From Enterocloster bolteae (lineage in GTDB: Bacteria; Bacillota; Clostridia; Lachnospirales; Lachnospiraceae): DNA of 64,000 nt. Under the pieces are notes generated by a model that ran no database searches, was not told the DNA's origin, and worked only from the letters and a program-made list of their open reading frames with translations. Below, in pieces: positions 3,580 to 41,835 of the stretch. The translations under genes and the position numbers were made by a program. The stretch is taken from contig JAETNT010000006.1 in the NCBI GenBank assembly GCA_021772025.1, positions 1-64,000 on the forward strand. Reading direction: 5' to 3'. How positions within the stretch are numbered: position 1 is the first letter of the stretch; each line of letters opens with the position of its first letter.

Positions 3580-3609
3580 GTGATATGGGTTCAAGTCCCA
3601 TTTCCCGCA
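3580..3609 (+). other. tRNA 3'-end fragment, probable attachment site (attR)
   Basis: ATGGG-TTCAAGT-CCCAT (3585-3601) is a complete T-arm, followed by TTCCCGC (3602-3608), the 3' half of an acceptor stem, and discriminator base A (3609). No 5' half, D-arm or anticodon arm precedes it; the sequence upstream is unrelated. The implied 5' acceptor is GCGGGAA and the discriminator A favours a tRNA-Leu. A lone tRNA 3' end at the boundary between AT-rich element genes and housekeeping genes is the expected duplicate left by site-specific integration into a tRNA gene. The matching intact tRNA should lie left of the window. Confidence 0.6.
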
Positions 3610-3612
3610 TGA

Positions 3613-3657
3613 AAGGTGCCGTATTTTTTGAAACTTCAGAAAATACAGCACCTTTTT
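3613..3657 (+). terminator. Intrinsic terminator after the tRNA fragment
   Basis: Arms 3613-3627 and 3640-3654 pair over 15 bases with one mismatch and are followed by T's. It most likely was the terminator of the original tRNA gene, which supports the reading of the preceding bases as a tRNA 3' end. Confidence 0.75.
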
Positions 3658-3724
3658 GCATCTAGGAATCTTTTGCATATAAGCTGAAAATCCGTATAAA
3701 TTTCACCCCTTGCAGAATCAGAGA

Positions 3725-4309
3725 CTAAGAGTAAGTTTTGATAATGTCTTCGGCGATGCATTTTTTAGAGATACATCGATCCATAGCCTGTTTTTCTATG
3801 TAGCGATGCGCCTCGGGTTCGCTCAAGTTCAGCTGGCTGATTAAAATCCATTTTGCTTTATTAACCAGACGAATTTCCGCCATTTTTTCTTCAATAGACA
3901 ATGACTTTGTTTCCAATTGCCTTAACCGTTCTCTGGCGCTTTCCATCCAATGAAGAGCAAGGATCATGATTGGTTTAGAAGTGGGCTTGGGCAAAGTGAA
4001 TACACCGTATTCTGCGACCTTATCATGAATGCCGGCATGAATATCGCTTTTTACCAGAAGCAGCACTGCTGTCGGTTTGGCGGTACTGATATCAATGGCA
4101 AAACGAGTGCCGTTATCATCCGGTAATGGAGCATTGATAATAAGAAAATCAAAATCTTTTTCTGAGAGAATTCTTTTGGCGGTGCTAACACTTGCAACGA
4201 TGTCAACAGGACTGTACCTTGATTCCGGGAGCAGGCCGGTAAAGGCAGAAGCGAAGCTGTTTGCCGCAGACACGATGAGTATACTGTAAACACGCTCTTT
4301 TAAGCTCAT
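3725..4309 (-). CDS. ANTAR-domain antiterminator with a pseudo-receiver
   Basis: 194 residues, last gene of the leftward nitrogen operon, 81 bases after the glutamine synthetase gene. Residues about 5-120 align in pattern with a response-regulator receiver (LPDDNG after beta-3, PKP near beta-5). However, the phospho-acceptor Asp is replaced by Asn59 (FLIINAPLPDD) and the acidic pair after beta-1 is missing (ILIVSAAN). Residues about 125-190 form the three-helix ANTAR RNA-binding domain. ANTAR proteins bind nascent leader RNA and prevent termination; several control nitrogen genes. Co-location with GOGAT and two glutamine synthetases suggests it controls these operons, with an input other than phosphorylation. 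Target hairpins are not proven here. Confidence 0.85.
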   Translation of the reverse strand: MSLKERVYSILIVSAANSFASAFTGLLPESRYSPVDIVASVSTAKRILSEKDFDFLIINAPLPDDNGTRFAIDISTAKPTAVLLLVKSDIHAGIHDKVAEYGVFTLPKPTSKPIMILALHWMESARERLRQLETKSLSIEEKMAEIRLVNKAKWILISQLNLSEPEAHRYIEKQAMDRCISKKCIAEDIIKTYS

Positions 4310-4390
4310 TTGGCCCCTCCTGTTTTTGTAATTGCTGCGTATCCGGCACGAAAATGCACCGATGATGCGCTTTGCCGGATTTCTTATGAA

Positions 4391-5623
4391 TTACTGGTCT
4401 GCAGGCGGCATAGCAGGTCTGCAGTAGATGTCCAATATAGACTTAGGGATATGGTCTTTGATAAAGCGGCTGCCTGCCGCTGCCGCACATGCGGATTGCA
4501 AACTTCCCGGTAATTGCTGAAACTTGGCAAGGGTATCTGTGCCGGCTTTATACAGGTTGATATCGGCAGGCTCCGGTAACTCCAGCTTCTCTTTAATTCC
4601 ATGAAGGCCGGCATATATCATTAATGCAAATGCCAGATAGGAATTTGCCGCAGGATCCGGAGAACGGAGTTCAACACGCCTGTATTTGCCTACAGCGGCG
4701 GGAACTCTCACAAGCTGAGAACGGTTCTCTCTGGACCAGGAAATATATCTGGGCGCTTTATAACTGCCAAAGCGTTGATAAGAGCTTTGCAGCGGGTTCA
4801 AAAAAACGGTCATTTCCGCCGCTTTATCAAGGATACCGGCAATCAAAAAGTCCATATAATCTTTATTGTCCGATGATTTTACCGACATATTAATGTGGAA
4901 TCCATTTCCGGGCCTATTATCCAGGGGTTTTGGGCTGAAATCAGCATGAAGTCCGTTACGGCGGGCTACAATCTTTACAACGGTCTGAAAGGTCATGGCA
5001 TTATCTGCGGCAGTAAGGGGATCGGAATAGCGAAAGTCAATTTCGTTTTGCCCGGGGCCTTCTTCGTGATGTGAACTTTCAGGGCGTATCCCCATCTGCT
5101 CAAGTGTGAGACATACTTCACGCCGGATGTTTTCTCCTCTGTCTTCCGGGGCAAGATCCATATAGCCGGCATAATCGTAAGGCTCTTTTGTAGGATTTCC
5201 ATTGTCGTCCAGATTAAAAAGATAAAATTCCTGTTCCGCCCCAAAGAAGAATTGGCAGCCGGCTTTTTCGGCGTCCCGGACAGCTTGCTTTAAGATAGAG
5301 CGTGAATCACATTCAAATATTCTTCCGTCCGGATAGGAAACGCTGCAGAACATGCGGACTACCCGACCGTTCTCCGGCCTCCATGGGAGAGGCGTCAGAG
5401 TGTCCGCATCGGGGTGAAGCAGTAAATCCGAATGAGCTTCATCACCAAAGCCCTGGATGGCGGACGCATCAATGGCAATTCCATATTCAAAAGCACAGGG
5501 AAGCTCGTCCGGCATAATGGATATGTTCTTTTGTTTGCCAAATACATCACAAAAGGCCAGACGGATGAATTTTACATCCTCCTCCTGTACATATTGGATA
5601 ACCTCTTGCTTTGAATATTTCAT
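4391..5623 (-). CDS. glnA: Glutamine synthetase, type I-like
   Basis: 410 residues, somewhat short for GlnA (usually 440-470). It joins ammonia to glutamate using ATP. The beta-grasp N-terminus (residues 1-85) is followed by the catalytic domain with the conserved E-Q-E-F-Y metal-binding segment (GAEQEFYLF, about 123), the HHEEGPGQNE box (about 186) and the GFHINMS histidine-containing box (about 240). An RVP(A)A arginine-containing segment (about 303) and an ELRSPDP box (about 318) complete the active site. It is cotranscribed with the split glutamate synthase, completing a GS/GOGAT ammonia-assimilation unit. The missing C-terminal stretch suggests a shortened adenylylation/loop region. A second, type III enzyme is encoded divergently. 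Confidence 0.9.
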   Translation of the reverse strand: MKYSKQEVIQYVQEEDVKFIRLAFCDVFGKQKNISIMPDELPCAFEYGIAIDASAIQGFGDEAHSDLLLHPDADTLTPLPWRPENGRVVRMFCSVSYPDGRIFECDSRSILKQAVRDAEKAGCQFFFGAEQEFYLFNLDDNGNPTKEPYDYAGYMDLAPEDRGENIRREVCLTLEQMGIRPESSHHEEGPGQNEIDFRYSDPLTAADNAMTFQTVVKIVARRNGLHADFSPKPLDNRPGNGFHINMSVKSSDNKDYMDFLIAGILDKAAEMTVFLNPLQSSYQRFGSYKAPRYISWSRENRSQLVRVPAAVGKYRRVELRSPDPAANSYLAFALMIYAGLHGIKEKLELPEPADINLYKAGTDTLAKFQQLPGSLQSACAAAAGSRFIKDHIPKSILDIYCRPAMPPADQ

Positions 5624-5640
5624 AAGCCACCTGCTTTCCT

Positions 5641-6363
5641 TTAATTTGCTGCATACATTTGCTTATAAGGGCTTTTGCTGTCCGGCGTAATGACAGTGAA
5701 AGGGGAGGATAAAACCCTATCCACATCATATTTAAAGTCAGAACAATATTCGGACAGATATTCACGGATCTCCGTCAAATCTTCAAAAGAGGCAGGCCTA
5801 ACGGTAACCTGCGGGGGAAAGACAATGTCTGTGCAGTCGCCTCGAAGATACATTTTACCGCCGTGCATACCTGTACAAGGAAAATTGCCCACAATATGGT
5901 TTTTGCCGGAAGTCAGGCCAAGGACAATGATAATCCCGCCTGCCTGATATTCCCCCAGAAAGCTTCCGGCAGAACCGCCGATTATCATCACGGGAACCTT
6001 TTCTTTATATGCTTTCATATGGATTCCTGCCCGATACCCGGCATTGTCCCGGACATATATTTTGCCGCCGCGCATGGCATACCCGGCAGCATCTCCAATG
6101 CTTCCGTGGATCAGCAGTTTTCCTTCATTCATGGTATCGCCTACGGCGTCCTGCGCGTTGGAATTTACCGTAATGCAGGCATTGTTTAAATAGGCCCCCA
6201 GAGCATTTCCGGGGATTCCGTTAATGATAAGGGTTTTGTCCGACATTCCTGCGGCAATGAACCGCTGGCCGCAGCATCCGTTGATGGTACAAGCTTCACC
6301 GGTTTGACGCAGCGCCTCGTTTAAAGCCCTGTAATCCAAATTTGCAGCATCAATTATTTTCAT
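5641..6363 (-). CDS. Glutamate synthase GXGXG-domain subunit
   Basis: 240 residues, equivalent to the C-terminal alpha-subunit domain of GltB. Repeated G-x-x-G-x-x-x-G turns (GNALGAYL, GDTMNEGKLL, GDAAGYAMRGG, GGSAGSFLGEYQAGG) between residues about 45 and 150 build the right-handed beta-helix seen in that domain, whose role is structural. The last 70 residues are specific to this stand-alone form. It lies between the FMN/Fe-S subunit and glnA, with a GGGAGGTG ribosome site. Splitting GltB into separate glutaminase, synthase and GXGXG chains is known from archaea and some anaerobes. Confidence 0.85.
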   Translation of the reverse strand: MKIIDAANLDYRALNEALRQTGEACTINGCCGQRFIAAGMSDKTLIINGIPGNALGAYLNNACITVNSNAQDAVGDTMNEGKLLIHGSIGDAAGYAMRGGKIYVRDNAGYRAGIHMKAYKEKVPVMIIGGSAGSFLGEYQAGGIIIVLGLTSGKNHIVGNFPCTGMHGGKMYLRGDCTDIVFPPQVTVRPASFEDLTEIREYLSEYCSDFKYDVDRVLSSPFTVITPDSKSPYKQMYAAN

Positions 6364-6398
6364 AAATTATATCACACCTCCCAATACATGTAAATTTT

Positions 6399-7904
6399 TT
6401 ATTGGCCGGCATAAGAGATGCCGAGAATTTCCAGCTCTTTTTCGTTCAGTCCTATGCCGCGGAGCATCAGGCGGTTTCCACGCAAAGCTTCGATAGAATT
6501 AATTCCCATGCCTCCCAGTAGTTCTTTGATTTCATGATTCCATGCCGTCATCAGGTTTACCAGGCGCTGACTTCCGATTTCCGGATCAAGCCTTTTTACA
6601 AGTTCAGGGCGCTGAGTAGCGATTCCCCAGTTACAATTTCCGCTTTGACAGGTCCGGCAAAGATGACATCCCAGAGCCAGCAGAGCGGCAGTGGCAATAT
6701 AGCAGGCATCGGCGCCCAGGGCAACGGCTTTCACAACATCTGCCGCGGTTCGAATACTCCCTCCGACCACCAGAGATACATGACTGCGGATCCCTTCGTC
6801 CCGAAGCCGCTGGTCAACAGCAGCCAGAGCCAGCTCAATAGGAATTCCTACATTATCACGGATCCTGGTAGGAGCCGCACCTGTGCCTCCGCGGAAACCG
6901 TCAATGGCAATAATGTCGGCGCCGCTCCTTGCAATACCGCTGGCAATTGCGGCAATGTTATGAACGGCCGCAACCTTGACAATAATCGGCTTTTTGTATT
7001 GGGTAGCTTCTTTTAAAGAAAACACAAGCTGGCGTAAATCTTCGATGGAGTAAATGTCATGATGGGGAGCCGGGGAAATGGCATCGGAGCCCTCGGGTAT
7101 CATTCTGGTGCGGGATATATCCCCGACAATTTTTGCTCCCGGCAGATGGCCGCCGATACCTGGTTTTGCTCCTTGTCCCATTTTAATTTCAATAGCGGCG
7201 CCGGCGTTGAGATATTCCGCATGAACTCCAAAACGTCCGGATGCAACCTGAACAATGGTATTTTCTCCATAGCAATAAAAATCCTCATGGAGGCCGCCTT
7301 CGCCGGTGTTATATAAAATGCCTAGTTTGGAGGCCGCCAAAGCCAGGGATTGATGAGCATTGTAACTGATGGAGCCATAACTCATTGCCGAGAACATAAC
7401 GGGCATGGAAAGTTCCAGCTGGGGCGGAAGCTTGCAGGTTAACCTGCCGTCAGGAGTACGCTGCACTTTCTGGGGTTTCTTTCCCAGATAGACCCGGGTT
7501 TCCATCGGCTCTCGCAAAGGATCGATAGAAGGGGCCGTTACCTGAGAAGCATTCAGCAGAAGCTTATCCCAATACACGGGAAAAGGTTTGGGATTGCCCA
7601 TGGAGGATAAAAGGACGCCGCCGGTGTTTGCCTGCTTATAAAGCTCTTTAACCGTATCGCTTTGCCAGTTTGCGTTTTCGCGGAGGGTACAATCGCTTTT
7701 TACGATTTTTAAGGCTCTGGCAGGACAGAAAGAAACGCAGCGCTGGCAGTTTACACATTTGCTTTCGTCGCATTTCATCCTATGAAGCTGGGGATCAAAT
7801 TGATGTACTCCATTGGCGCATTGCTGCTGGCAGATTTTACAGACAATACATTTATTCTCGTTTCTGATAACTTCAAATTCAGGGTAAATAAACTCTATAC
7901 TCAT
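6399..7904 (-). CDS. Ferredoxin-type glutamate synthase, FMN/Fe-S subunit
   Basis: 501 residues. Residues 19-70 contain two CxxCxxCxxxC clusters, a 2[4Fe-4S] ferredoxin-like module that the bacterial NADPH enzyme's alpha chain lacks. Residues about 80-480 form the FMN-binding synthase barrel (PVMFSAMSYGSIS; KMGQGAKPGIGGHLPG; GFRGGTGAAPT), and a later cysteine group (CHLCRTCQSGNCNWG, about 415) matches the Fe-S loop of GltB. It transfers ammonia from glutamine to 2-oxoglutarate with electrons most likely delivered by ferredoxin, since no NAD(P)H-binding GltD is present. The start overlaps the glutaminase stop by one base (TGATG). Confidence 0.92.
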   Translation of the reverse strand: MSIEFIYPEFEVIRNENKCIVCKICQQQCANGVHQFDPQLHRMKCDESKCVNCQRCVSFCPARALKIVKSDCTLRENANWQSDTVKELYKQANTGGVLLSSMGNPKPFPVYWDKLLLNASQVTAPSIDPLREPMETRVYLGKKPQKVQRTPDGRLTCKLPPQLELSMPVMFSAMSYGSISYNAHQSLALAASKLGILYNTGEGGLHEDFYCYGENTIVQVASGRFGVHAEYLNAGAAIEIKMGQGAKPGIGGHLPGAKIVGDISRTRMIPEGSDAISPAPHHDIYSIEDLRQLVFSLKEATQYKKPIIVKVAAVHNIAAIASGIARSGADIIAIDGFRGGTGAAPTRIRDNVGIPIELALAAVDQRLRDEGIRSHVSLVVGGSIRTAADVVKAVALGADACYIATAALLALGCHLCRTCQSGNCNWGIATQRPELVKRLDPEIGSQRLVNLMTAWNHEIKELLGGMGINSIEALRGNRLMLRGIGLNEKELEILGISYAGQ

Positions 7905-8998
7905 CAGAATGTCCCTTCCTTTACTTTTACGATTACAGGTTTGCCGCCGGCAGGAGACCAGATATTTTCAGCGTCAGGCTCCATTGTACGAATGGCAGCT
8001 TCTTCACTGGCAATGAATACCCGGTCGCCTTTTTCGCCGACAACCATAGAACGCAGCTTTAAACGGTCATTAAGGGCCATTAGACCGCCATTAAATCCCA
8101 GCACGATGGAAAAGGGGCCGGTTATCAGAAGACTTGGAAACATGGTACGCAGATAGGTATATTTTTTCTGCTCTTCGGAGTCTGTTTTAGCGGCGATGGT
8201 ACTCCAGAACGGGGCGGCAATTACGCCTGCCGTTTCATCAAGAGTAAGTCCCTGCACACGAAGGAGATAGTCGATAATATAAGTAATGACCTCCGTATCG
8301 GTCTGAAGAGTACATTTATAGCCGAACATTTCAATAAACCTGCGGTTGGCATCATAAGAAGAAATTTCACCGTTATGTACGACCGAATAGTCAAGCAGTG
8401 TAAAAGGATGGGCGCCGCCCCACCAGCCGGGGGTATTGGTTGGATAGCGCCCGTGAGCCGTCCAAGAATACCCCTCATATTCTTCTAATTTGTAAAATAC
8501 TCCTACATCTTCCGGAAAGCCTACTGCTTTGAAAGCGCCCATGTTTTTGCCGCTGGAAAAAACGTAGGCTCCCGGCATTTCTGAGTTGATTTTCATAACG
8601 GTTTTTGCAACAAATTCTTTTTCATCTAACTGCATGGATGTTAGTACGGATTTTAGAGGTGCAGCAAAATATCTCCATATAATAGGCTCATCGGTAATAG
8701 CCGGAATCTTACGGGTTGGGATAATTTCTGATTGTATAATCTCAAATCGTTCTTTAAGAAAAGCCTCGCAGTCCTTTCGCGTAGAGCGGGTATCAAAAAA
8801 CATGTGCAAAGCATAAAGCTCTTTATATTCAGGATAAATCCCGTAACCGGCAAAGCCGCCGCCTAATCCGTTGGAGCGGTCATGCATTGGTTTCATAGAA
8901 TTTGCGATCCGTTCACCGGACATTTTATTTCCTTCTTTGGAAATCACGGCTGCAATGGCACATCCGGAAGGGATTCGTACTTGGCCTTCCATTTTCAT
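7904..8998 (-). CDS. Glutamate synthase glutaminase (class II GATase) subunit
   Basis: 364 residues from ATG at 8998, chosen because GGGAGG lies nine bases upstream; an in-frame ATG at 9034 falls inside the leader terminator and is rejected. The class II (Ntn) amidotransferase fold is shown by a candidate nucleophile Cys13 (SGCAIAA, implying removal of a 12-residue propeptide), HGRYPTN and VVHNGEISS. It would hydrolyse glutamine and pass ammonia to the FMN subunit. First gene of the leftward operon (glutaminase, synthase, GXGXG, glnA, ANTAR). Expression probably passes through the 5' hairpin at 9022-9089. Confidence 0.88.
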   Translation of the reverse strand: MKMEGQVRIPSGCAIAAVISKEGNKMSGERIANSMKPMHDRSNGLGGGFAGYGIYPEYKELYALHMFFDTRSTRKDCEAFLKERFEIIQSEIIPTRKIPAITDEPIIWRYFAAPLKSVLTSMQLDEKEFVAKTVMKINSEMPGAYVFSSGKNMGAFKAVGFPEDVGVFYKLEEYEGYSWTAHGRYPTNTPGWWGGAHPFTLLDYSVVHNGEISSYDANRRFIEMFGYKCTLQTDTEVITYIIDYLLRVQGLTLDETAGVIAAPFWSTIAAKTDSEEQKKYTYLRTMFPSLLITGPFSIVLGFNGGLMALNDRLKLRSMVVGEKGDRVFIASEEAAIRTMEPDAENIWSPAGGKPVIVKVKEGTF

Positions 8999-9021
8999 CT
9001 GTTTATGCCTCCCTTTCAGAA

Positions 9022-9089
9022 AATAGAAAAGCAAAGGCGCTCATTTCAAGAGCAGATAACCATCTGCACAAAAAATGAACGCCTTTGCT
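9022..9089 (-). terminator. 5'-terminal terminator-like hairpin before the GOGAT operon
   Basis: On the minus strand AGCAAAGGCG (from 9089) pairs with CGCCTTTGCT (to 9030). Inside, TCATTT/AAATGA and GCAGAT/ATCTGC extend the helix around a symmetric internal loop and a GGTT tetraloop. TTTT, then a T-rich stretch, follows. It is predicted to start about five bases into the transcript and to end 32 bases before the glutaminase ATG, so it should act as an attenuator of the operon. Confidence 0.75.
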
Positions 9090-9100
9090 CATATCACTAA

Positions 9101-9129
9101 TTTATACACCTGCCTTCGGAATTTGTCAA
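9101..9129 (-). promoter_or_regulatory. Sigma-A promoter of the GOGAT/GlnA/ANTAR operon
   Basis: Reading leftwards: TTGACA (9129-9124), 17-base spacer, TATAAA (9106-9101). Transcription should begin near 9094, five bases before the long hairpin that ends in T's. Confidence 0.8.
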
Positions 9130-9153
9130 CAATATTTTGGGCAAAATTAAAGG

Positions 9154-9182
9154 TTGACAACTTTTTTAAATAGGTGTATTAT
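9154..9182 (+). promoter_or_regulatory. Sigma-A promoter of the GSIII/amidotransferase operon
   Basis: TTGACA (9154-9159), 17-base spacer, TATTAT (9177-9182). The predicted start is at 9189-9190, two or three bases before the hairpin at 9192. This would drive an operon of about 18 kb. Confidence 0.82.
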
Positions 9183-9191
9183 CACACCCAT

Positions 9192-9243
9192 AAAGGCAAC
9201 GGCGTCTTTGAGGTTAATACCTTAAAGGCGCCGTTGCCTTTTT
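9192..9243 (+). terminator. 5'-terminal terminator-like hairpin before glnN
   Basis: AAAGGCAACGGCG (9192-9204) pairs with CGCCGTTGCCTTT (9229-9241). The helix continues inside through CTTTGAGG/CCTTAAAG to a hexaloop TTAATA, and five T's end the right arm. It forms at the very 5' end of the transcript, about 105 bases before the glnN start, so it should block the operon unless bypassed. The hexaloop lacks the A1/G4 signature of known ANTAR sites. Confidence 0.8.
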
Positions 9244-9261
9244 AGATGGCAGGGTATCCAG

Positions 9262-9330
9262 CAAAACGCGCCAGCAACGCGTTTTGTCAGATTTCTATTT
9301 CAGAAAGGTTTCCCGGCTGCAACAGCCGGG
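9262..9330 (+). promoter_or_regulatory. Tandem leader hairpins upstream of glnN
   Basis: Two strong hairpins lie between the terminator and the start codon: CAAAACGCG/CGCGTTTTG (9262-9286, loop CCAGCAA) and CCCGGCTG/CAGCCGGG (9312-9330, loop CAA). Neither has a T-run. The second ends 17 bases before ATG, just ahead of GAGGAGGAG, so it could tune translation or be one half of a paired RNA recognition element. Role inferred. Confidence 0.55.
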
Positions 9331-9347
9331 GACGGTGAGGAGGAGTC

Positions 9348-11447
9348 ATGATGAAAAATGTTTCAGAGTATTTTGGATGTCTGGTATTTGATGACAGAGT
9401 GATGAAAGCAAATTTGCCGGCAAAGGTATACCAGTCTTTAAGAAAGACGATTGATGAGGGGGCGCGGCTTGATATTAGCGTAGCCAATGCAGTTGCAGCC
9501 GCCATGAAGGACTGGGCGGTTGCAAAAGGCGCAACCCATTATACCCACTGGTTTCAGCCTTTAACCGGCATAACGGCTGAAAAACATGACAGTTTTATTT
9601 CTCTGTCCCCGGACGGCGGAGTCATTATGGAGTTTTCCGGAAAAGAACTGATTAAGGGAGAGCCGGATGCGTCTTCATTTCCTTCCGGAGGGTTAAGAGC
9701 GACCTTTGAGGCAAGAGGATATACTGCATGGGATCCCACATCCTATGCCTTTATAAAGGGAAAGACATTGTGTATCCCTACTGCCTTTTGTTCCTATGGC
9801 GGAGAAGCGCTGGATAAAAAGACTCCCCTGCTCCGCTCTATGGAGGCGCTGAACAGACAGGCCCTCCGCATTCTCCGTTTGTTTGGACATGATGATGTAA
9901 AGTGTGTCCGCACATCGGTAGGCCCGGAACAGGAATACTTTTTGATTGATAAAGAAATGTACGATAAACGTCCTGACCTTCGCTTTACGGGACGTACCCT
10001 TTTCGGAGCAAAATCTCCCAAAGGACAGGAGATGGATGACCATTACTTCGGCGTGATTAAACCCAGGGTTGCGGCCTATATGGAAGAACTGAACAAGGAG
10101 CTTTGGAAGTTGGGAATCCTGGCCAAGACAGAACATAATGAGGTAGCGCCGGCACAGCATGAACTTGCCCCTATTTATACCACAACCAATGTTGCAACGG
10201 ATCATAACCAGCTAACTATGGAGATTATGCAGAAGGTGGCTGCAAAGCACGGACTGGTGTGCCTTCTCCATGAAAAACCTTTTGCAGGCGTTAACGGAAG
10301 CGGGAAACACAACAACTGGTCGATTGCCACAGACGCAGGGGTGAATTTACTTTCGCCGGGAGAAACGCCTTATGAAAATGCACAATTTCTGCTGTTCTTA
10401 TGCGCGGTAATAAAAGCAGTAGACGATTATCAGGATCTGCTTCGGCTTTCAGTGGCAACCGCCGGAAATGATCACCGCCTTGGGGCCAATGAAGCGCCTC
10501 CCGCAGTGGTATCCATTTTCCTTGGGGATGAATTAACCGGGGTCTTGGAAGCAATCGAAAATAATACGCCTTATGCAGGAGCCCAAAAAACTCAGATGAA
10601 ATTAGGAGTGGATGTTCTTCCGAAATTTAATCGGGATACCACGGACCGCAATCGGACATCGCCGTTTGCATTTACAGGAAATAAATTTGAGTTCCGTATG
10701 CTGGGATCCTCCAACAGCATCGCCTGCGCCAATATTATGTTAAACAGCGCTGTTGCGGAAAGCCTGAAGATCTATGCAGACAGGCTGGAAAAAGCTGAAA
10801 ATTTTGAAGATACCTTACATGAGATGATCCGTAAGACCATTAAAGATCATAAAAACATTATTTTTAACGGGAATGGCTATGATGATACATGGATAAAAGA
10901 AGCGGTTGAAAGGAGAGGCCTCCTGAACTACCGCACCACGCCGGATTGTATGCCCCACTTGCTGGATAAGAAAAATGTACAGATGCTGACTTCCCACAAA
11001 GTATTTTCAGAAGCAGAGCTAAAATCCAGATGTGAAATTATGCTGGACAATTACTGTAAGACCGTTGCAATTGAGGCCAATACCATGGCGGGAATGGCAA
11101 AGACGCAAATCGCTCCGGCAGTAGAAGCTTACACAATGGAACTTGCCAAAGCAGTTGCTGCAAAAAAGGCGGTGGACATTTCCCTGGCCTGCAGTTATGA
11201 AAGCGGCTTAATCAAAAAGCTGTCGGCTTTGATTGACAGGATTTCCATTCAAACCGAGGAGCTGGAGGATGTGCTGGCAAAACTTCATGATGCAGAAGAT
11301 ATTATGGAGGAAGCCAATCAGATCAGAGACGCCGTACTGGTAAAAATGGGAGAACTGCGGCTGGCCTGCGATGAAGCGGAAACAGTGACGGCTAAAAAGT
11401 ATTGGCCTTTCCCCACATACGGAGATTTGCTTTTTAGTGTTTATTAA
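9348..11447 (+). CDS. glnN: Glutamine synthetase type III
   Basis: 699 residues, the normal size of the large GSIII (GlnN) family found in Bacteroidetes, cyanobacteria and anaerobic Firmicutes, against about 450 for GlnA. Typical segments are [11 protein letters not shown] (about 205), the [18 protein letters not shown] box (about 262), [13 protein letters not shown] (about 305) and the [19 protein letters not shown] signature (about 437). It forms glutamine from glutamate and ammonia. The long C-terminal helical region (from about 560) is characteristic. First gene of an 11-gene run; a GAGGAGG site precedes ATG (an ATG follows immediately as the second codon). It supplies the glutamine used by the downstream amidotransferases. 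Confidence 0.96.
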
Positions 11448-11464
11448 ATACGGAGGTACAAGAT

Positions 11465-13045
11465 ATGTGCTCGATTATGGGTTATTGCGGCCCCGGCGCG
11501 GCCTTGGATAGGTTTCAGAAAGGATTCCGGAGAACGGTTTCAAGAGGTCCGGACGACAGCCGGATTGTGGATACCGGAAACGGCCTTCTGGGTTTTCACC
11601 GGTTAGCAATTATGGGACTGACTCCATCCGGTATGCAGCCCTTTAAGCTTGACAAAAATTATGTGGTTTGCAACGGTGAAATTTATGGATTTGAGAAGCT
11701 GAAAAAGGAACTTTCCGCCAAATATACATTTGAAAGCGATTCTGACTGCGAGATCCTTTTGCCTCTCTATAAAGAATATGGAACAGAGATGTTTTCCATG
11801 CTGGACGCGGAATTTGCCTGTATTATTTATGACGGCAGCACAGGGGAATATATTGCGGCAAGGGATCCTATCGGAATTCGTCCCCTCTATTATGGGTATG
11901 ATAAAAACGGTGTCATTATTTTTGCCAGTGAAGCAAAAAATCTGGTTGAGCTGACCGATAACATTATGCCTTTTCCGCCGGGACATTACTATAGAGGAGG
12001 CGAGTTTCACTGCTACTGTGACATCGCCGGGGCGGATACGATTTGCCGTGACGATTTGGAAACGGTTTGCCGGAATATTCACCGCAAACTGGTGGCCGGT
12101 GTAGAAAAGCGCCTTGTTGCAGATGCAAAAGTAGGATTTTTGCTTTCCGGAGGATTGGATTCTTCTCTGGTATGCGCTATTGCTGCAAAGAAAAGCAAAG
12201 AACCCATAAAGACTTTTGCCATTGGAATGAGTGAGGACGCCATTGATTTAAAATACGCAAAACAGGCCGCAGAATATATCGGCAGTGATCATAAGGAAAT
12301 TTACATGACGCCAAAAGACGTGCTGACATCCTTGGAAACCGTCATTGAGCTTTTGGGGACCTATGACATTACTACAATTCGCGCATCCATGGGAATGTAT
12401 CTGGTGTGCAAAGCAATCCATCAACAGACGGATATTCGAGTGCTTCTGACAGGTGAGATATCCGATGAACTATTTGGTTATAAATATACGGATTTTGCTC
12501 CCGATGCGGCTGCATTTCAAGAGGAAGCCAAGAAGAGAATCCGGGAGCTGCATATGTATGACGTTCTTCGTGCAGACCGCTGTATTTCAGTAAACTCGCT
12601 GGAGGCAAGAGTTCCCTTTGGCGATATTGATTTTGTAAAATACGTCATGTCTGTGGATCCCGAATTAAAACTTAACCGGTACGGAAAAGGAAAATATCTG
12701 CTCCGCCGCGCATTTGAAAAAGGCGGCTATTTGCCGGAAGAGATTTTATGGAGAGAAAAGGCGGCGTTTTCCGATGCAGTGGGCCACTCTATGGTGGACT
12801 ATTTAAAAGAATATGCAGAAGAAACCTATACAGATGAAGAGTTTGAAACTTTGCGCGTGAAATATACACACGCCAGGCCTTTTACAAAGGAATCCCTGTT
12901 ATACAGGGAGATTTTTGAAAAGTACTATCCGGGTCAGGCGGAAATGATTGTGGATTTTTGGATGCCCAACAGGGAATGGGAAGGATGTAATGTAAATGAT
13001 CCTTCCGCCAGAGTCCTGTCAAATTATGGGGACAGCGGAAAATAA
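11465..13045 (+). CDS. asnB: Asparagine synthase, glutamine-hydrolysing
   Basis: 526 residues. Cys2 directly after the initiator Met is the class II glutaminase nucleophile, followed by [16 protein letters not shown] and CNGEIY. The synthetase half starts near residue 215 with the SGGLDSS pyrophosphate loop, then [10 protein letters not shown]. It amidates aspartate with glutamine and ATP. The gene is 17 bases after glnN. It could in principle be another AsnB-like amidotransferase, but the domain order and size fit asparagine synthase. Confidence 0.93.
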
Positions 13046-13079
13046 GCCGGAGACACTACTTAGAAGGAGGCAGAGGAAG

Positions 13080-13799
13080 ATGGAAAAACGCGGACAGTTG
13101 TATGAAGGAAAAGCAAAAAAAGTTTTTTTAACAGAGGATCCGGATGTTCTCATTGTTTCTTATAAAGATGATGCAACCGCTTTTAACGGACTGAAAAAGG
13201 GAACGATTGCGGGAAAAGGAGCAATCAATAATCGTATCACCAATCTGCTGCTGCAAAAAATGGAAGCAGCAGGAGTACCGACTCATTATATTAAGGAATT
13301 AAATGATAGGGAAACCGCAGTCCGCAAAGTGGAGATAGTTCCGCTTGAAGTAATTGTGAGAAATGTGGCGGCCGGGAGCTTCTCAAAACGTCTGGGCATC
13401 GCCGAAGGAAAAGAACTGGCGGAACCTACCATTGAATTTTCTTATAAAAATGATGAGCTTGGAGATCCTCTCATTAACAGCTATTTTGCAAGAGCCCTGA
13501 ATCTTGCAGATTCAAATGAAATAGAAGAGATAAAAAAGTATACATTTATGGTAAATGATATATTAAAAGAGGAATTTTTGAAAGCCGGACTCCGGCTCAT
13601 TGATTTTAAAATAGAATTCGGACGTTTTCATGGAAAGATTATTCTGGCGGATGAAATTTCACCGGATACATGCCGCTTATGGGATGCCAAAACCGGAGAG
13701 AAAATGGATAAAGACCGTTTCCGGCGGGATTTGGGAAATGTAGAAGAGGCCTATCTTCAGGTAGCTGAAAGGCTGGGATTAGAAACAGGGAAGGAGTAG
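13080..13799 (+). CDS. purC: SAICAR synthetase
   Basis: 239 residues from ATG at 13080, preceded by AAGGAGG; an upstream in-frame start inside asnB is rejected because it adds an unrelated tail. It condenses CAIR with aspartate in purine synthesis. Family features are the [14 protein letters not shown]-loop start, the [15 protein letters not shown] segment and the IDFKIEFGR signature followed by [15 protein letters not shown]. Isolated here from the rest of the inosinate pathway except purB, purA and purF. Confidence 0.95.
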
Positions 13800-13806
13800 A
13801 CAGCTA

Positions 13807-15243
13807 ATGAGAACGGATATTTACCAGTCGCCTTTATGCGAGAGGTATGCAAGCAATGAGATGAAACAGATATTTTCCAATGACAGGAAATTTTCAACAT
13901 GGAGAAAGCTGTGGGTTGCCCTTGCAGAAAGCGAGAAAGAGCTGGGACTTCCTATTTCCGATGAACAGATTCAGGAGATGAAGTCTCAAATCAACTGTAT
14001 AGACTATGAAAAGGCAAAGGAATATGAAGGCCGGCTCCGTCATGATGTGATGGCCCATGTCCATACTTTCGGCGATGCCTGTCCTAAGGCTGCCGGAATC
14101 ATTCATTTAGGAGCTACTTCATGCTATGTGGGGGATAACACAGATATTATCCTTATGCAGAGCGCCCTGATGCAGATTAGGAACCTGCTTTTAAACGCAG
14201 TAGAGGCGCTTAGTAAGTTTGCAATGGAGTATAAAGCCCTTCCTACCCTGGCATATACGCATTTTCAGGCAGCACAGCCAACCACTGTAGGAAAGAGGGC
14301 GTGCCTTTGGATCAACGATTTGTTGTTTGATCTGGAACAGCTTGATTTTCAATTAAATCATTTAAAACTCCTTGGCTGTAAAGGAACTACCGGGACAGGC
14401 GCCAGCTTTTTAGAACTGTTTGACGGCGATGAAAAGAAGGTAGAGCAGCTGGAGCAGAAAATTGCAGATAAGATCGGCTTTTCTAAATGTCAGAGTGTAA
14501 GTGGTCAGACATATACAAGGAAAGCTGATTTTGCAGTATTACAGGTTTTGTCCGGGATTGCTCAGAGCAGTTCCAAATTCTCCGGCGATATCAGGCTGCT
14601 CAGCCACTTAAAAGAGGTGGAAGAACCTTTTGAAGAAAAACAGATTGGTTCTTCTGCCATGGCATATAAAAGGAATCCCATGAGAAGTGAACGGATTGCT
14701 TCCCTGTCCCGCTATGTGATCTGTGATCTGCAGAATACAGCAATTACCGCATCGGCCCAATGGCTGGAGAGAACGCTGGACGATTCGGCGAACAGGCGGT
14801 TATCGATACCGGAAGCATTTCTGGCAGCAGACGGAATTCTTAATTTGTATATTAATGTGGCCAGAGGGCTGAAGGTTTATCCGGCTGTAATAAAGAAACA
14901 TCTGGACGAGGAGCTTCCGTTTATGGCTACAGAAAATATCCTGATGTATTGTGTAAAAAACAAAGGCGGAGATCGGCAGAAATTGCATGAGATTATACGC
15001 AGGCATTCGGTTAAAGCGGCAGAACAGGTAAAACTTTATGGGAAGGAAAATGATTTGCTTGACCGGCTTAAAGCCGATGAGAGTCTGGGATTGACATCTG
15101 AAGAAATAGAATTATTGCTGGATCCTGTAAAATTTACAGGAATGGCGGAATACCAGTGTGAGAAATATATAACAGAGACCGTAAAACCACTGTTGGAGAG
15201 AAACAAACAGCGAGTTAGCGTTGCCGCACAAATTAGTGTCTGA
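13807..15243 (+). CDS. purB: Adenylosuccinate lyase
   Basis: 478 residues, seven bases after purC. It releases fumarate from SAICAR and from adenylosuccinate, finishing both aspartate-dependent nitrogen transfers. Features are LGATSCYVGDNTD (about 100), the TLAYTHFQAAQPTTVGKR region (about 151), and the fumarase-superfamily signature GSSAMAYKRNPMRSE (about 281) with the catalytic serine loop. The pairing of purC and purB just upstream of purA groups all three aspartate-using steps. Confidence 0.95.
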   Translation: MRTDIYQSPLCERYASNEMKQIFSNDRKFSTWRKLWVALAESEKELGLPISDEQIQEMKSQINCIDYEKAKEYEGRLRHDVMAHVHTFGDACPKAAGIIHLGATSCYVGDNTDIILMQSALMQIRNLLLNAVEALSKFAMEYKALPTLAYTHFQAAQPTTVGKRACLWINDLLFDLEQLDFQLNHLKLLGCKGTTGTGASFLELFDGDEKKVEQLEQKIADKIGFSKCQSVSGQTYTRKADFAVLQVLSGIAQSSSKFSGDIRLLSHLKEVEEPFEEKQIGSSAMAYKRNPMRSERIASLSRYVICDLQNTAITASAQWLERTLDDSANRRLSIPEAFLAADGILNLYINVARGLKVYPAVIKKHLDEELPFMATENILMYCVKNKGGDRQKLHEIIRRHSVKAAEQVKLYGKENDLLDRLKADESLGLTSEEIELLLDPVKFTGMAEYQCEKYITETVKPLLERNKQRVSVAAQISV

Positions 15244-15258
15244 AAGAGAGGGACAGGA

Positions 15259-16536
15259 ATGTTTACATCAATCGTCGGAACAAACTGGGGAGATGAGGGA
15301 AAAGGCCGTATGGTGGATCTTTTAAGTGAAAATTACGATATTGTTGTCCGCTATCAGGGCGGAAACAATGCAGGCCATACGGTAATCAATGATAAAGGTA
15401 AATTTGTTATGAATTTGATGCCTTCCGGAATATGCAGGGAGAATACCGTAAATATTCTGGGTCCGGGTATTGTCATTGATTTGGAGCATTTATACGGCGA
15501 AGTGCAGAAACTGGCTGAAAAAGGAGTGGAGGTAACGCAGGAACACTTAAAAATCAGTGACAGGGCAACCATCTGCATGCCTTATCACAAGCTGATGGAC
15601 TGCCTGGAAGAAGACAGGCTTCTTGATAAAAAATTCGGTTCCACACGCAGGGGAATTTCTCCGGTATATGCAGATAAATATATGAAAAAAGCTTTGCGGA
15701 TGGGAGACCTGTTCCATATGGATTGTTTGGGAAAAAGACTTTCTGAGCTTGTAGAATGGAAGAACCTGACCGTGGAAAAGGGATATGGACATGCGCCTGT
15801 GTCTTCAGAAGAGATGCTTACTTGGCTGAAAACCTATGGAGAATTCTTCCTTCCCTTTATTTGTGATACAACAGAATATCTGGAAAATGCAATTTCAGCA
15901 GGAAAGTCCGTTATGTTTGAAGCGCAGCTTGGAGCTCTAAGAGACATTGATTTTGGCATTTACCCCTATACGTCTGCATCGACTACACTGGCAGCCTATG
16001 CTCCTATTGGAGCAGGAGTTCCCTTTGTCAGACTGGATGAGAGTATTGGGATCATGAAAGCGTATTCCAGCTGCGTGGGAGAAGGCCCCTTTACCTGCGA
16101 ACTGTTTGGCGAGGCGGCGGAAAGACTCCGGGAAGCAGGCGGCGAGTATGGAGCTGCAACAGGAAGGCCCAGGAGAGTAGGCGGCTTTGATGCAGTTGCT
16201 TCCCGATACGGTACGAAAATGCAGGGCTGCACTTATGTGGCCCTTACGAAACTGGATGTGCTTTCTTATATGGATAAGATTCCGGTATGTGTTGCTTATG
16301 AAATCAATGGACACAGGGAAGACAGATTCCCTTCCGGCATAGAAGAATTAAATTCCGCAAAGCCCATTTATGAATTCCTTCCGGGGTTTAAGCGTGACAT
16401 CAGCGGCTGCCGGACGGCAGAGGATTTGCCGAAAGAAGCGCTGGGGTATATCCGGTATATTGAAGAGGCGATAGAGTGTCCGATTAAATATGTATCCGTC
16501 GGCGCAGAGCGGGATGCGTATATTACAATGTTTTAA
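15259..16536 (+). CDS. purA: Adenylosuccinate synthetase
   Basis: 425 residues. It joins IMP and aspartate using GTP. The N-terminal GTP-binding P-loop reads [11 protein letters not shown] (usual last residue Lys), followed by GGNNAGHTV and the GLY/IMP-binding segments FGSTRRGI (about 130) and GATTGRP-type loop ([12 protein letters not shown], about 295). The [18 protein letters not shown] region (about 332) is the guanine-binding part. Fifteen bases separate it from purB. It is more divergent than most PurA, but the catalytic segments are intact. Confidence 0.93.
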
Positions 16537-16546
16537 GAGGTACAGG

Positions 16547-19716
<3,170 letters not shown>

Positions 19717-19720
19717 GATT

Positions 19721-21559
19721 ATGTGCGGGATAATAGGATTTTCCGGAAAAACAGCGGCTGTTCCGATTTTACTGGACGGTCTGGAGAGGCTGGAATACAG
19801 AGGATATGATTCAACAGGAGTGGCTGTTGTATCGCCGGACGGAAAACTGCAGGTGAAAAAGAGCAGGGGCCGCCTGGCTGTTTTGAAGGCAATGCTGAAG
19901 GAAGAGAAATCCTTGCCAGGAAGCATCGGAATCGGACATACCAGATGGGCTACCCATGGAGAACCCAATGACGTCAATGCACATCCTCATGTTGGCCAAG
20001 AGAAAAAAATCGCGGTTGTCCACAACGGAATTATCGAAAATTATCTTGAGATCAAGAATTCTCTGATACGCAAAGGGATTCGGTTTTCTTCTGACACAGA
20101 CACGGAAGTAATCGTACAGCTGTTGGAATATTATTACAAAAAGGATTCTAACTTGATGGATGCGGTATACAGAGTGTTAAATCGGATTAAAGGCGCATAT
20201 GCTATGGGAATCCTCTGCTCGGATTATCCGGAACAGATGGTAGCGGCGAAAAAGGATGCTCCTCTGCTAATCGGATTTGGCAATGACGGCAATTATATGG
20301 CATCGGACGTTACGGCTCTTCTTTCACATACCAGAACCGTGACTTATCTGGAAGATGATGAAGTGGCGGTAATTACGGCGAATACTGTGAAAGTATACGA
20401 CAGCGACAGATGCCCTGTGGAAAAAGAAAAGCATGTTATTGAATGGGATGCAGCTGCAGCAGAAAAAGGTGGATATGCCCATTTTATGCTTAAGGAAATT
20501 ATGGAACAGCCAGAGGCGGTCCGAAAAACAGTCTCTCCCCGATTGGAAAATGGAAAAATCCTGTTCAATGAATTAAAGAACGCAGGAGACATAATACGAA
20601 ATATTTCCAGAATCTATATTGCCGCATGCGGTTCCGCCTATCATGTAGGAATGATTGGGAAATATATATTGGAAAAATTGCTGCGTATTCCGGTGGAGGC
20701 ATGTCTTGCATCAGAATTCCGATACAGCGAACCGCTGCTTGGAGAAGACGCATTGGTGATTGTAATCAGCCAGTCAGGAGAAACTTTGGATTCTATGGCA
20801 GCGCTTCGCGAAGCAAAAAGAAGAGGCTCAAAAGTCCTTTCTATTGTAAATGTTATGGGAAGCTCCATTGCAAGGGAATCGGATTTTGTCCTTTACACAT
20901 GGGCAGGCCCGGAGATCGCGGTGGCCACTACAAAAGCATATACCACACAGATGGTGCTGCTGATTATGCTGGGAGTCTGGTTTGCCGGGCAATTAAAACT
21001 GATTGGACAGGATGAGTATGACAGGATTGTAGAAGACCTTATTCTCCTTCCGGAAAAAATAAAAGAAGTCTTAAAAGACCTTAATAACTATCAAAAAGCA
21101 GCGTCCAGATATTTTAACCATAACCAAGTATTTTATATCGGGAGAAATCTGGATTACGCATTAGGGCTGGAAGGTTCCCTGAAGCTGAAAGAGATTTCCT
21201 ACATTCACTCAGAATCCTATGCCGCCGGGGAACTAAAGCATGGAACCATTTCTCTTATAGAGCCGGGAACCTTGGTAATTGCCTTGGCAACTTATGCGCC
21301 CCTAGTAGAAAAATCATTATCAAACATTGCAGAGGTAAAGTCCAGAGGTGCAGAAGTCATAGGAATGACTACGGAAAAAACAGCAGATATCATAAGCCGT
21401 CAGGCATCGGAGCTGTTTGTGATTCCTCAGGTGCATCCGGTTTTGCAGCCTGTATTAGGGGTGATACCATTACAGCTTTTCGCATACTATGTGGCGCTGA
21501 ATCGGGGATGTGATATTGATAAACCAAGAAATCTGGCAAAGTCGGTTACGGTAGAGTAA
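19721..21559 (+). CDS. glmS: Glucosamine-6-phosphate synthase
   Basis: 612 residues, four bases after pyrG. Class II glutaminase with Cys2 (MCGIIGFSG), EYRGYDSTG, HTRWATHG and VVHNGIIENY. Two SIS sugar-isomerase domains follow (AACGSAYHVG about 308, SQSGETLDS about 348, and the C-terminal KELKHG-type lysine at GELKHGTISL, ending DKPRNLAKSVTVE). It makes glucosamine-6-phosphate for wall precursors from fructose-6-phosphate and glutamine. No glmS ribozyme could be present in the four-base gap, so control must come from the operon. Confidence 0.97.
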   Translation: MCGIIGFSGKTAAVPILLDGLERLEYRGYDSTGVAVVSPDGKLQVKKSRGRLAVLKAMLKEEKSLPGSIGIGHTRWATHGEPNDVNAHPHVGQEKKIAVVHNGIIENYLEIKNSLIRKGIRFSSDTDTEVIVQLLEYYYKKDSNLMDAVYRVLNRIKGAYAMGILCSDYPEQMVAAKKDAPLLIGFGNDGNYMASDVTALLSHTRTVTYLEDDEVAVITANTVKVYDSDRCPVEKEKHVIEWDAAAAEKGGYAHFMLKEIMEQPEAVRKTVSPRLENGKILFNELKNAGDIIRNISRIYIAACGSAYHVGMIGKYILEKLLRIPVEACLASEFRYSEPLLGEDALVIVISQSGETLDSMAALREAKRRGSKVLSIVNVMGSSIARESDFVLYTWAGPEIAVATTKAYTTQMVLLIMLGVWFAGQLKLIGQDEYDRIVEDLILLPEKIKEVLKDLNNYQKAASRYFNHNQVFYIGRNLDYALGLEGSLKLKEISYIHSESYAAGELKHGTISLIEPGTLVIALATYAPLVEKSLSNIAEVKSRGAEVIGMTTEKTADIISRQASELFVIPQVHPVLQPVLGVIPLQLFAYYVALNRGCDIDKPRNLAKSVTVE

Positions 21560-21580
21560 GACAAAAGAGGAAATAAGTTT

Positions 21581-22999
21581 ATGGCGATTCATGAGGAATG
21601 TGGCGTATTTGGGGTGATAAGCCCAAAAAAGGAAAATATTGCGGATATTGCCTATTATGGCTTATATGCATTGCAGCATAGAGGACAGGAGAGCTGCGGG
21701 ATTGTGGTAAATGACGATGGCGTATTTTCTTCCTATAAAGATTTGGGGATTGTCAGCGAAGTGTTTTTAAAAGATACGTTATCTGCTTTGCCTGCCGGAA
21801 AGATGGCGGTAGGCCATGTCCGATACGGAACTACAGGAGGAAACACAAGAAATAACTGCCAGCCAATGGAAGTAAACCACCAGAAAGGAAAGATGGCCCT
21901 GGCTCATAACGGTAATTTGAGCAATGCTTTGGAGCTGCGGGATAAACTGGAGCTGTCAGGGGCTATTTTCCATACAACCAGCGATACAGAGACAATAGCA
22001 TATGTGGTTACCAGAGAAAGACTTGCAGCCCCCAGCATTGAGGAAGCAGTAAGCAGGGCAATGAATTCTCTTGAAGGAGCATATTCCCTGATTTTAATGT
22101 CTTCCACGAAACTGATTGCGGCGAGGGATCCTTATGGCTTCCGGCCTTTGTGCTATGGACAGATGCCGGCCGGAGGGTATGCAATTGCATCTGAGAGTTG
22201 TGCGCTGTCAGCAGTAGGCGCGGAGTTTATCAGAGACGTATTGCCGGGAGAGATCCTGGTGTTCAGTGACAGTGGAGTGGAGGCCCGCAGGGAACACTGC
22301 GAAAAACAGAGGAGAAAAATCTGCATTTTTGAATACATCTATTTCGCAAGGCCGGATTCGGTTATTGATAGTATTTCAGTGGCTGAGTCCCGGACGCGGG
22401 CAGGGGAATTGCTGGCGGAAAACTATCCGGCGGACGCGGACATTGTCATTGGAGTTCCGGACAGCGGTCTGGAGGCGGCTCTGGGATTTTCAAAGGCTTC
22501 AGGAATTCCATACGGAATCGGATTAATTAAAAACAAATACATAGGAAGGACATTTATTTCCCCAGGGCAGGATGAACGGCTGGATCAGGTAAGGATTAAA
22601 TTAAGTCCTGTAAAAAATGTGATAGAGGGGAAAAAGGTGGTGCTGATTGACGATTCCATTGTCAGAGGAACCACCAGCAGACGCATTGTGAAACTTTTGC
22701 GTGACGCAGGCGCGCGAGCGATACACATGAGAATTTCAGCTCCGCCGTTTTTGCATCCTTGTTATTACGGAACAGATATTGATTCAGAGGAAAATTTGAT
22801 TGCATGCCATCATAATCTGGAGGAAATTGCAAAAATAATCGGGGCGGATACTCTGGCCTATTTCCCCATTGAAAAACTGGACGAGCTTGTGAAAAATCAA
22901 GACTATTGCGCGGCGTGCTTTAATGGGGATTATCCAACGAAAATTCCGTCGGATCTTCGTAAAGATCGGTTTGAAAGAAAACTGTCTGAAAAAGTCTAA
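21581..22999 (+). CDS. purF: Glutamine PRPP amidotransferase
   Basis: 472 residues. A six-residue propeptide (MAIHEE) precedes the nucleophile Cys7, as in the Bacillus-type enzyme. YALQHRGQES, GHVRYGTTG and LAHNGNLSN define the class II glutaminase; VVLIDDSIVRGTTS is the PRPP-binding loop. Cysteines at KICIFEYIYF, HPCYYGTD and CAACF match the positions that hold the [4Fe-4S] cluster of oxygen-labile PurF, in keeping with an anaerobe. It starts purine synthesis with glutamine nitrogen. Confidence 0.96.
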   Translation: MAIHEECGVFGVISPKKENIADIAYYGLYALQHRGQESCGIVVNDDGVFSSYKDLGIVSEVFLKDTLSALPAGKMAVGHVRYGTTGGNTRNNCQPMEVNHQKGKMALAHNGNLSNALELRDKLELSGAIFHTTSDTETIAYVVTRERLAAPSIEEAVSRAMNSLEGAYSLILMSSTKLIAARDPYGFRPLCYGQMPAGGYAIASESCALSAVGAEFIRDVLPGEILVFSDSGVEARREHCEKQRRKICIFEYIYFARPDSVIDSISVAESRTRAGELLAENYPADADIVIGVPDSGLEAALGFSKASGIPYGIGLIKNKYIGRTFISPGQDERLDQVRIKLSPVKNVIEGKKVVLIDDSIVRGTTSRRIVKLLRDAGARAIHMRISAPPFLHPCYYGTDIDSEENLIACHHNLEEIAKIIGADTLAYFPIEKLDELVKNQDYCAACFNGDYPTKIPSDLRKDRFERKLSEKV

Positions 23000-23020
23000 T
23001 ACATATAGGGGACTGCTATT

Positions 23021-41669: not shown

Positions 41670-41712
41670 TATCATATCGGTTCTTTGAGCGAAAGTATCT
41701 AAGTCGTAAAGA

Positions 41713-41835
41713 TAGGATACTGAGCCGGGATAAAAGCATACTTTTATCCCCGGGGTTTATGCGGAAACGCCTGAGCCTTCCTTATTCCCGCAGCCAGGCA
41801 TGCGTGCATGCACATCTGGCGTCTGCTGCGGGGAT
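41713..41835 (+). ncRNA. Probable molybdenum-cofactor (Moco) riboswitch
   Basis: The RNA has ACTGAGCC, then a strong hairpin GGGATAAAAG/CTTTTATCCC, then GGGGTTTATGCG-GAAACGCCTGAGCC, and a further CCCGCAG/CTGCGGG stem enclosing CCAG/CTGG. The GAGCC and GAAACGCC elements flanking a hairpin are those I associate with the Moco RNA motif, which occurs upstream of Mo-cofactor and molybdate-transport genes, exactly the genes that follow. The assignment rests on remembered motif elements and context, not a covariance search; a tungsten-cofactor variant is possible. Confidence 0.5.

Follow-up and report, generated by a model that had tools for sequence, protein, structure and literature searches.

The window analysed here, a stretch of 64,000 nucleotides of Enterocloster bolteae DNA, carries two divergently transcribed operons of nitrogen genes with a promoter, a predicted terminator and a small hairpin at the head of each (Table 1). 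The GlnA-like and ANTAR genes follow the GOGAT genes in the left operon, and such linkage of an ANTAR gene to GS/GOGAT genes, as in NitR-type systems, is found in the window and in its relatives. Elsewhere in the window, positions 3588-3609 (GGTTCAAGTCCCATTTCCCGCA) look like a tRNA 3' terminus standing without the remainder of its gene, and ARAGORN calls no tRNA there; with a helix-turn-helix gene and a gene for a choline-binding-repeat protein as neighbours, this may be the attachment site of a mobile element. A match to the molybdenum/tungsten cofactor riboswitch at 41671-41816 scores 36.7 bits against an Rfam threshold of 36.

Table 1. Genes and predicted regulatory features of the two divergent operons
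Feature	Position	Strand	Basis
ANTAR protein with pseudo-receiver, putative antiterminator, end of left operon	3725..4309	-	Pfam ANTAR, 57.6 bits
GlnA-like protein, flap Glu to Lys, putative non-catalytic sensor partner	4391..5623	-	Pfam; alignment
GXGXG subunit of split GOGAT	5641..6363	-	Pfam
GOGAT FMN/Fe-S subunit	6399..7904	-	Pfam Glu_synthase
GOGAT amidotransferase (GATase_2) subunit, left operon gene 1	7904..8998	-	Pfam
Predicted intrinsic terminator hairpin, left leader	9029..9090	-	Fold -38.4 kcal/mol, z -10
Predicted antiterminator of the left leader: one ANTAR-type hexaloop hairpin, AUGAGC[AAAGGC]GUUCAU	9075..9092	-	Fold; conservation
Left operon promoter, TTGACA-17-TATAAA	9129-9101	-	Sequence; 11/12 consensus matches
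Right operon promoter, TTGACA-17-TATTAT	9154-9182	+	Consensus scan; 11/12 matches
Predicted antiterminator of the right leader: one ANTAR-type hexaloop hairpin, UAAAGGC[AACGGC]GUCUUUG	9191..9210	+	Fold; conservation
Predicted intrinsic terminator hairpin, right leader	9192..9241	+	Scan; fold -40.4 kcal/mol, z -11
Type III glutamine synthetase (GSIII), right operon gene 1	9348..11447	+	Pfam GSIII_N and GS C-terminal domains
Asparagine synthase B (glutamine-hydrolysing), right operon gene 2	11465..13045	+	NCBIfam PRK09431 above cut-off

Near-consensus promoters facing both ways had been proposed by the first-pass annotation, and the 11 of 12 matches of each bear this out; with transcription assumed to start about 7 bases past the -10 element, the predicted 5' ends lie near 9094 (left) and 9189-9190 (right), where that annotation had placed them. 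The right promoter is one of only two sites with 11 of 12 matches among the 33 promoter-like sites recovered by a consensus scan of positions 3600-23100, and the left one is absent from this list because the scan rule demands a T at the last -10 position. Since the scan totals are no better than chance (33 promoters versus 33.3 after shuffling, and 23 terminators versus 21.2), only the strength and the conservation of these particular promoters and terminators are counted here. Long terminator-like hairpins beginning 2-5 bases into both RNAs had likewise been claimed, and folding agrees: T's stand at the end of each hairpin, and none of 200 shuffles reached the stability of the left hairpin, nor any of 200 that of the right. 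The latter, with 20 pairs of which 11 are GC, has the most pairs of any terminator-like site in the 19.5 kb scanned, and only an inner piece of the left hairpin (9054-9038) is picked up by the terminator scan. With such hairpins at the extreme 5' ends, it is probable that both operons are off by default, as was also suggested.

When the first 25 bases of each RNA are folded alone, a hairpin of 6-7 bp is obtained whose six-base loop carries A1 and G4. These two bases are hallmarks of ANTAR recognition (PMC3369931), and by hand count the left hexaloop agrees at 11 of 13 positions with the eut sequence AGCAANGRRGCUY given in that account. Both hexaloop hairpins fold at -4.8 kcal/mol, a value equalled by 2 of 200 shuffles on the left and 17 of 200 on the right; folding energy alone is thus no proof, and it is conservation that argues for their reality. 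The hairpin sits within the terminator's own 5' arm in both leaders, which disposes of the earlier view that almost no leader is left for an antiterminator, and because the two structures use the same bases they are mutually exclusive. The AAAGGC that the first-pass annotation had noted in both helices forms the hexaloop on the left; on the right it belongs to the stem, and the hexaloop reads AACGGC.

The conservation of this unit was followed in GOGAT-type clusters from the best 80 of 576 confirmed candidate contigs, which are not a random sample, together with 7 genomes of the family, loci being counted only where at least 250 nt lay upstream of the gene; the GOGAT type of the window is present in 8 of 150 family-sample genomes, its own included. 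A hexaloop hairpin, defined by a GC-AANGRN-GU-like pattern with a C-G closing pair and a stem of at least 4 bp, was found upstream of the GOGAT amidotransferase gene at 82 of 85 loci (directly after a promoter in 81) and upstream of GSIII at 73 of 75 (directly after a promoter in 53), and in 2 of 228 upstream regions of four other genes in the same clusters, taken as control. The combination of hexaloop and overlapping terminator (-12 kcal/mol or lower) occurs at 73 of 85 GOGAT loci, 72 of 75 GSIII loci and none of the 228 control regions. One of the 73 GSIII matches (L007) is a chance match in coding sequence and one match among the 85 GOGAT loci (L077) is the antisense of its neighbour's unit, neither being a real leader. 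As to the exceptions, the loop is retained with an altered closing base in two GOGAT loci (L046, L049) and a third (L054) is without a recognisable leader; before GSIII, a remnant is seen in L050 and nothing in L055.

Among 121 unique leaders chosen blind to pairing, by promoter plus AAnG only, stem pairs 1-5 are formed in 117-120. Between the two operons pairs 3, 4 and 5 swap (A-U/G-C, G-C/A-U and U-A/A-U, respectively), and since the stem hardly varies within one operon, covariation lies mainly between the two. The first-pass annotation had proposed a covariation search of the hairpin upstream of GSIII and GOGAT genes, and its outcome is that the stem pairs are kept through A-U/G-C/U-A swaps. 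Information content in GOGAT leaders amounts to 1.82 bits per base within the 18-base hexaloop hairpin versus 0.36 in the next 24 bases, and in GSIII leaders to 1.75 versus 0.39 beyond the hairpin; A1, A2, G4 and the closing pair are fixed because the leaders were selected for the loop, the other 13 positions having been free to vary.

The competing terminator is a similarly regular companion of the hexaloop. Of 137 leaders, 136 continue into a terminator-like hairpin with a T-run, which ends at a median of +57 and in 128 of these 136 overlaps with the hexaloop hairpin; shuffling of the sequence past the hexaloop hairpin leaves 78 hairpins in the 137 leaders, 24 of them overlapping, and the number of leaders that attain at least -20 kcal/mol in stability falls from 109 to 5 on such shuffling. 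Loop position 3, whose partners were read off predicted folds, covaries with the terminator 3' arm as A-U, G-C and C-G; at other positions the 5' arm hardly changes, and drift by way of G-U pairs is seen in the 3' arm. Folding of the growing RNA, performed as equilibrium folds of prefixes and not as a kinetic simulation, favours the hexaloop at first in 136 of 136 leaders; it stays the best structure until the RNA has reached a median length of 49 nt, and its displacement occurs a median of 9 nt ahead of terminator completion. For the window, the switch points are predicted at 53 of 67 nt on the left and at 38 of 50 nt on the right.

The reading we prefer, and to which we assign a probability of close to 80%, is that each operon is preceded by a single hexaloop inside a terminator, at which transcription is predicted to stop unless the ANTAR protein binds and causes read-through. 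RNA polymerase would leave a strong promoter and the hexaloop would form within the first 20 bases of the transcript; by default it would be absorbed into the terminator and transcription would likely end at about +50 to +70. Under nitrogen shortage, the ANTAR protein would hold the hexaloop and so permit read-through, the signal perhaps reaching this protein through the GlnA-like protein; and since the left operon includes the ANTAR gene, self-amplification of the circuit would follow. Termination, ANTAR binding, read-through and induction under nitrogen limitation are all things that we infer, in the last case from NitR (PMC6316151). The first-pass annotation had suggested antitermination by the ANTAR protein through an unknown mechanism. 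The first part of this guess is well supported, because a conserved, covarying hexaloop unit is predicted before GOGAT and GSIII, and the contact residues of the protein are intact (see below); the second part does not stand, as ANTAR antitermination is already known, for GS/GOGAT genes in outline (PMC6316151), with a suggestion to this effect for C. thermocellum (PMC4676874). A build with one hexaloop placed at the very start of the transcript, together with its breadth, appears to be undescribed as far as open-access literature searches show.

What is known of related systems speaks for two hexaloops. Both hairpins matter to EutV, whose natural linkers measure 5-12 nt and whose induction is drastically reduced by linkers of 3 or 14 nt (PMC3369931), NasR binds one hairpin weakly, at about 12 uM (PMC7496416), and according to Walshe et al. 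preventing termination requires contact to each of two hexaloops (PMC8934654); these findings stand against a single-hexaloop model. The window's leaders could be ordinary dual-hexaloop ANTAR targets in which the second hexaloop has degenerated, for instance to UUC-AGAGCA-GAA inside the terminator. In the first 110 nt of both window leaders, however, there is no second A1/G4 hexaloop, even at 3 bp and with any closing pair, and among 190 units of relatives a strict second hexaloop (at least 4 bp, linker 3-20 nt) was found in just 6. Looser candidates (3 bp, C-G closing) occur in 16 of the 190 and rank A1/G4 first of the 16 base combinations, a rank that drops to fifth of 16 once any closing pair is accepted, and the terminator interior in which they would lie is unconserved. 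A second hexaloop is thus present in too few units to be the rule, and we regard its degenerate form as an improbable explanation, even though one GOGAT leader (L057) carries a genuine-looking dual hexaloop with at least 4 bp.

The upstream side was considered in the same way: the position of the promoter leaves no space there for a further hexaloop, and 50 of the 190 single units have no promoter immediately before them. In 4 of these 50 a loose candidate is seen on the upstream side, a point in favour of a degenerate dual target. Such promoterless units occur, for example, between glutamate dehydrogenase (gdhA) and GSIII genes. In 22 of 87 loci GSIII and GOGAT have a glutamate dehydrogenase gene between them, that of L016 being full-length and identified by Pfam, and a 70-residue fragment in L145 gave no Pfam match. 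Among the 75 GSIII leaders, 35 contain two units and 2 contain three, mostly 65-82 nt apart, arranged as tandem attenuators. In the right leader of the window, two further hairpins are predicted by folding beyond the terminator, at about 9261-9287 and 9308-9327, neither with an ANTAR loop, the first of them being covered by the second-hexaloop scan; at the place corresponding to 9260-9327, 37 of 75 relatives carry a further hexaloop unit. The dual hexaloop of L057, with a linker of about 12 nt, offers a natural control for single versus dual architecture.

Conservation of 18-20 bp immediately at +1 could also mark a DNA operator for a repressor, the terminator being incidental. The element does form an imperfect inverted repeat, and its spacing to the promoter is fixed: among 88 GOGAT upstream regions (window's included), 83 have the hexaloop 12-16 nt past the -10, exactly 14 nt in 63 of these 83, and their promoters have 10-12 of 12 consensus matches. 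Against an operator, 115 of the 121 leaders have G-U as their second stem pair, which in DNA would be a mismatch; conservation of the loop is asymmetric, with G5 present in 103 leaders and C6 in 102 of 121 (a count in which 8 of 52 GSIII leaders are misregistered and A1, A2 and G4 are preset); the promoterless units described above make up 50 of 190; and there is a strand bias, the unit lying in the sense direction in 150 of 162 upstream ends and in the antisense direction in 7. An operator is, on these grounds, very unlikely. Still less likely is that the terminated RNAs of 55-70 nt act in trans, either as small RNAs or by soaking up the ANTAR protein as sponges. The sequestering RNA EutX of the eut system provides a precedent (PMC8934654), but a terminated RNA would bury the hexaloop in a helix of -38 to -40 kcal/mol, and beyond the 18-base hexaloop hairpin the leader shows hardly any conservation, which also tells against the pair of regulatory small RNAs that the first-pass annotation had offered as its other option. 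A metabolite-binding riboswitch, although common where leader terminators precede biosynthetic genes, hardly merits consideration, as Rfam covariance models gave no family at gathering score over 9022-9243 and the conserved part, 18-20 nt at the extreme 5' end, is small for an aptamer.

In all 55 ANTAR orthologues, the window's included, Asn59 occupies the phospho-acceptor site and Ser14 opens the acidic pair, both sites being placed by alignment, so that the phospho-acceptor Asp and the acidic pair of an EutV-type response regulator are absent in 55 of 55 and the receiver is thus a pseudo-receiver. The RNA-contact positions K153, E164, H168 and M176 are invariant in the same 55 sequences; they correspond by alignment to K149, E160, Y164 and M172 of EutV, among the residues named in PMC8934654. 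By alignment, AmiR likewise has a His at the EutV Y164 position. As the receiver lacks a phospho-acceptor, the signal probably arrives via a partner protein, and the adjacent GlnA-like protein is put forward, as a hypothesis, as the best candidate for carrying it.

In glutamine synthetase, the flap glutamate is catalytic. The flap of the GlnA-like protein is one residue shorter than the PGYEAP of solved glutamine synthetases and has Lys in 57 of 58 sequences, the remaining one having Arg; incomplete genes were excluded. Eight residues presumed to bind metal or substrate are kept in 57 or 58 of the 58. A protein of this kind may possibly be a dead glutamine synthetase used as a sensor; that it senses glutamine or glutamate and signals to the pseudo-receiver ANTAR protein, which in turn rescues RNA polymerase through one hexaloop, a single one thus being enough for antitermination, is as a whole a tentative proposal that we would not bet on. 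A second glnA-ANTAR pair is present in the window's own genome (contig C1, L152 1185-3186), with Asp in the flap of its glutamine synthetase, and no hexaloop leader was found for it.

The GlnA-like and ANTAR genes travel together: at 66 assessable loci of 80 (the further 14 being not assessable for the pair), both follow the GOGAT genes in 56, neither in 9, ANTAR only in 1 and GlnA-like only in none. Of the 9 genomes lacking the pair, 7 were searched and contained no close orthologue of the window's ANTAR protein, the best match having an E value of 1.1e-5 and one genome giving no match at all. All 7 carry another ANTAR gene beside a glnA of ordinary length type, and that protein would therefore have to read the same hexaloops; the presence of this other gene counts for the model, the lack of a close orthologue against it.

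Further regulon members were sought in the window's own assembly, which is fragmented (198 contigs) and has 7.26% contamination. A third leader copy stands before an ammonium transporter gene (amtB) fused to a P-II domain (C52, L153 1274-2995), and this amtB leader includes a second A1/G4 hexaloop of 3 bp. Stem-loop searches of this genome brought no convincing copy beyond the three leaders. A perfect match on contig C149 lies inside a coding sequence, which we take to resemble fliE, and was set aside as chance. With one mismatch allowed, the GSIII-type pattern gave 9 matches versus 15 for the control and was thus no better, and the GOGAT-type pattern returned the window's site alone (1 versus 0).

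In the family, the promoter-linked pattern was present in 31 of 150 genomes (the window's own included) versus 2 with the reversed control, and in the phylum in 20 of 398 versus 3 with the control. Of 50 promoter-linked sites listed, 37 distinct ones were examined; 29 of them precede nitrogen or glutamine genes, namely GOGAT, GSIII, GlnA, amtB/P-II, asnB, purC, pyrG, guaA, a distant class II amidotransferase and urease genes, and 8 have no identified or related gene. That motif and ANTAR domain occur in the same genomes is weak evidence, because the domain is present in 131 of the 150 family genomes anyway, and was rejected as proof. Two of the 31 motif-positive genomes (G087 and G114) have no ANTAR domain, and no nitrogen gene was recognised at their sites.

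These leaders form a large natural set of single-hexaloop sites in which the polymerase sets the limit, completion of the predicted terminator having its median at +57, and they make it directly testable whether one hexaloop suffices. They further suggest a common nitrogen control among Clostridia, many of them sampled from the gut. Should the GlnA-like partner be confirmed, RNA-based control would gain a nitrogen sensor of a new type.

AmiC and NasS are sensors of the solute-binding type, and the candidate partner described here differs from them in being a glutamine-synthetase-like protein. The resemblance to the AmiR/AmiC and NasT/NasS pairs lies in a pseudo-receiver ANTAR protein (reported for AmiR in PMC8934654) under the control of a partner, which is here proposed. 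At the RNA level, the units resemble the dual-hexaloop targets of EutV (Enterococcus faecalis), NasR and AmiR in the A1/G4 hexaloop, in preceding nitrogen genes and in a hairpin that shares bases with the 5' part of an intrinsic terminator, here a predicted one; unlike those targets as they are described (PMC3369931, PMC8934654), they possess a single hexaloop, located at the first nucleotides of the RNA without an upstream P1. A parallel in function is NitR of Clostridium saccharobutylicum, an ANTAR protein with reported antitermination of GS/GOGAT-cycle genes in response to nitrogen limitation (Stutz 2007, cited in PMC6316151); the passage on NitR in that review mentions neither a GlnA-like partner nor a GSIII/purine operon. 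Clo1313_2030, at the end of the GOGAT cluster of C. thermocellum, is similarly an ANTAR gene clustered and co-expressed with GS/GOGAT genes, and its authors propose an ammonia-sensitive antiterminator (PMC4676874), the passages on this gene describing neither leader RNA nor hexaloop. Finally, the proposed use of a glutamine synthetase fold as nitrogen signal to a regulator recalls GS-TnrA in Bacillus subtilis (PMC6316151), with the difference that TnrA is a DNA-binding factor, whereas the regulator here would be an RNA-binding antiterminator and its GS-like partner a protein without the flap glutamate.
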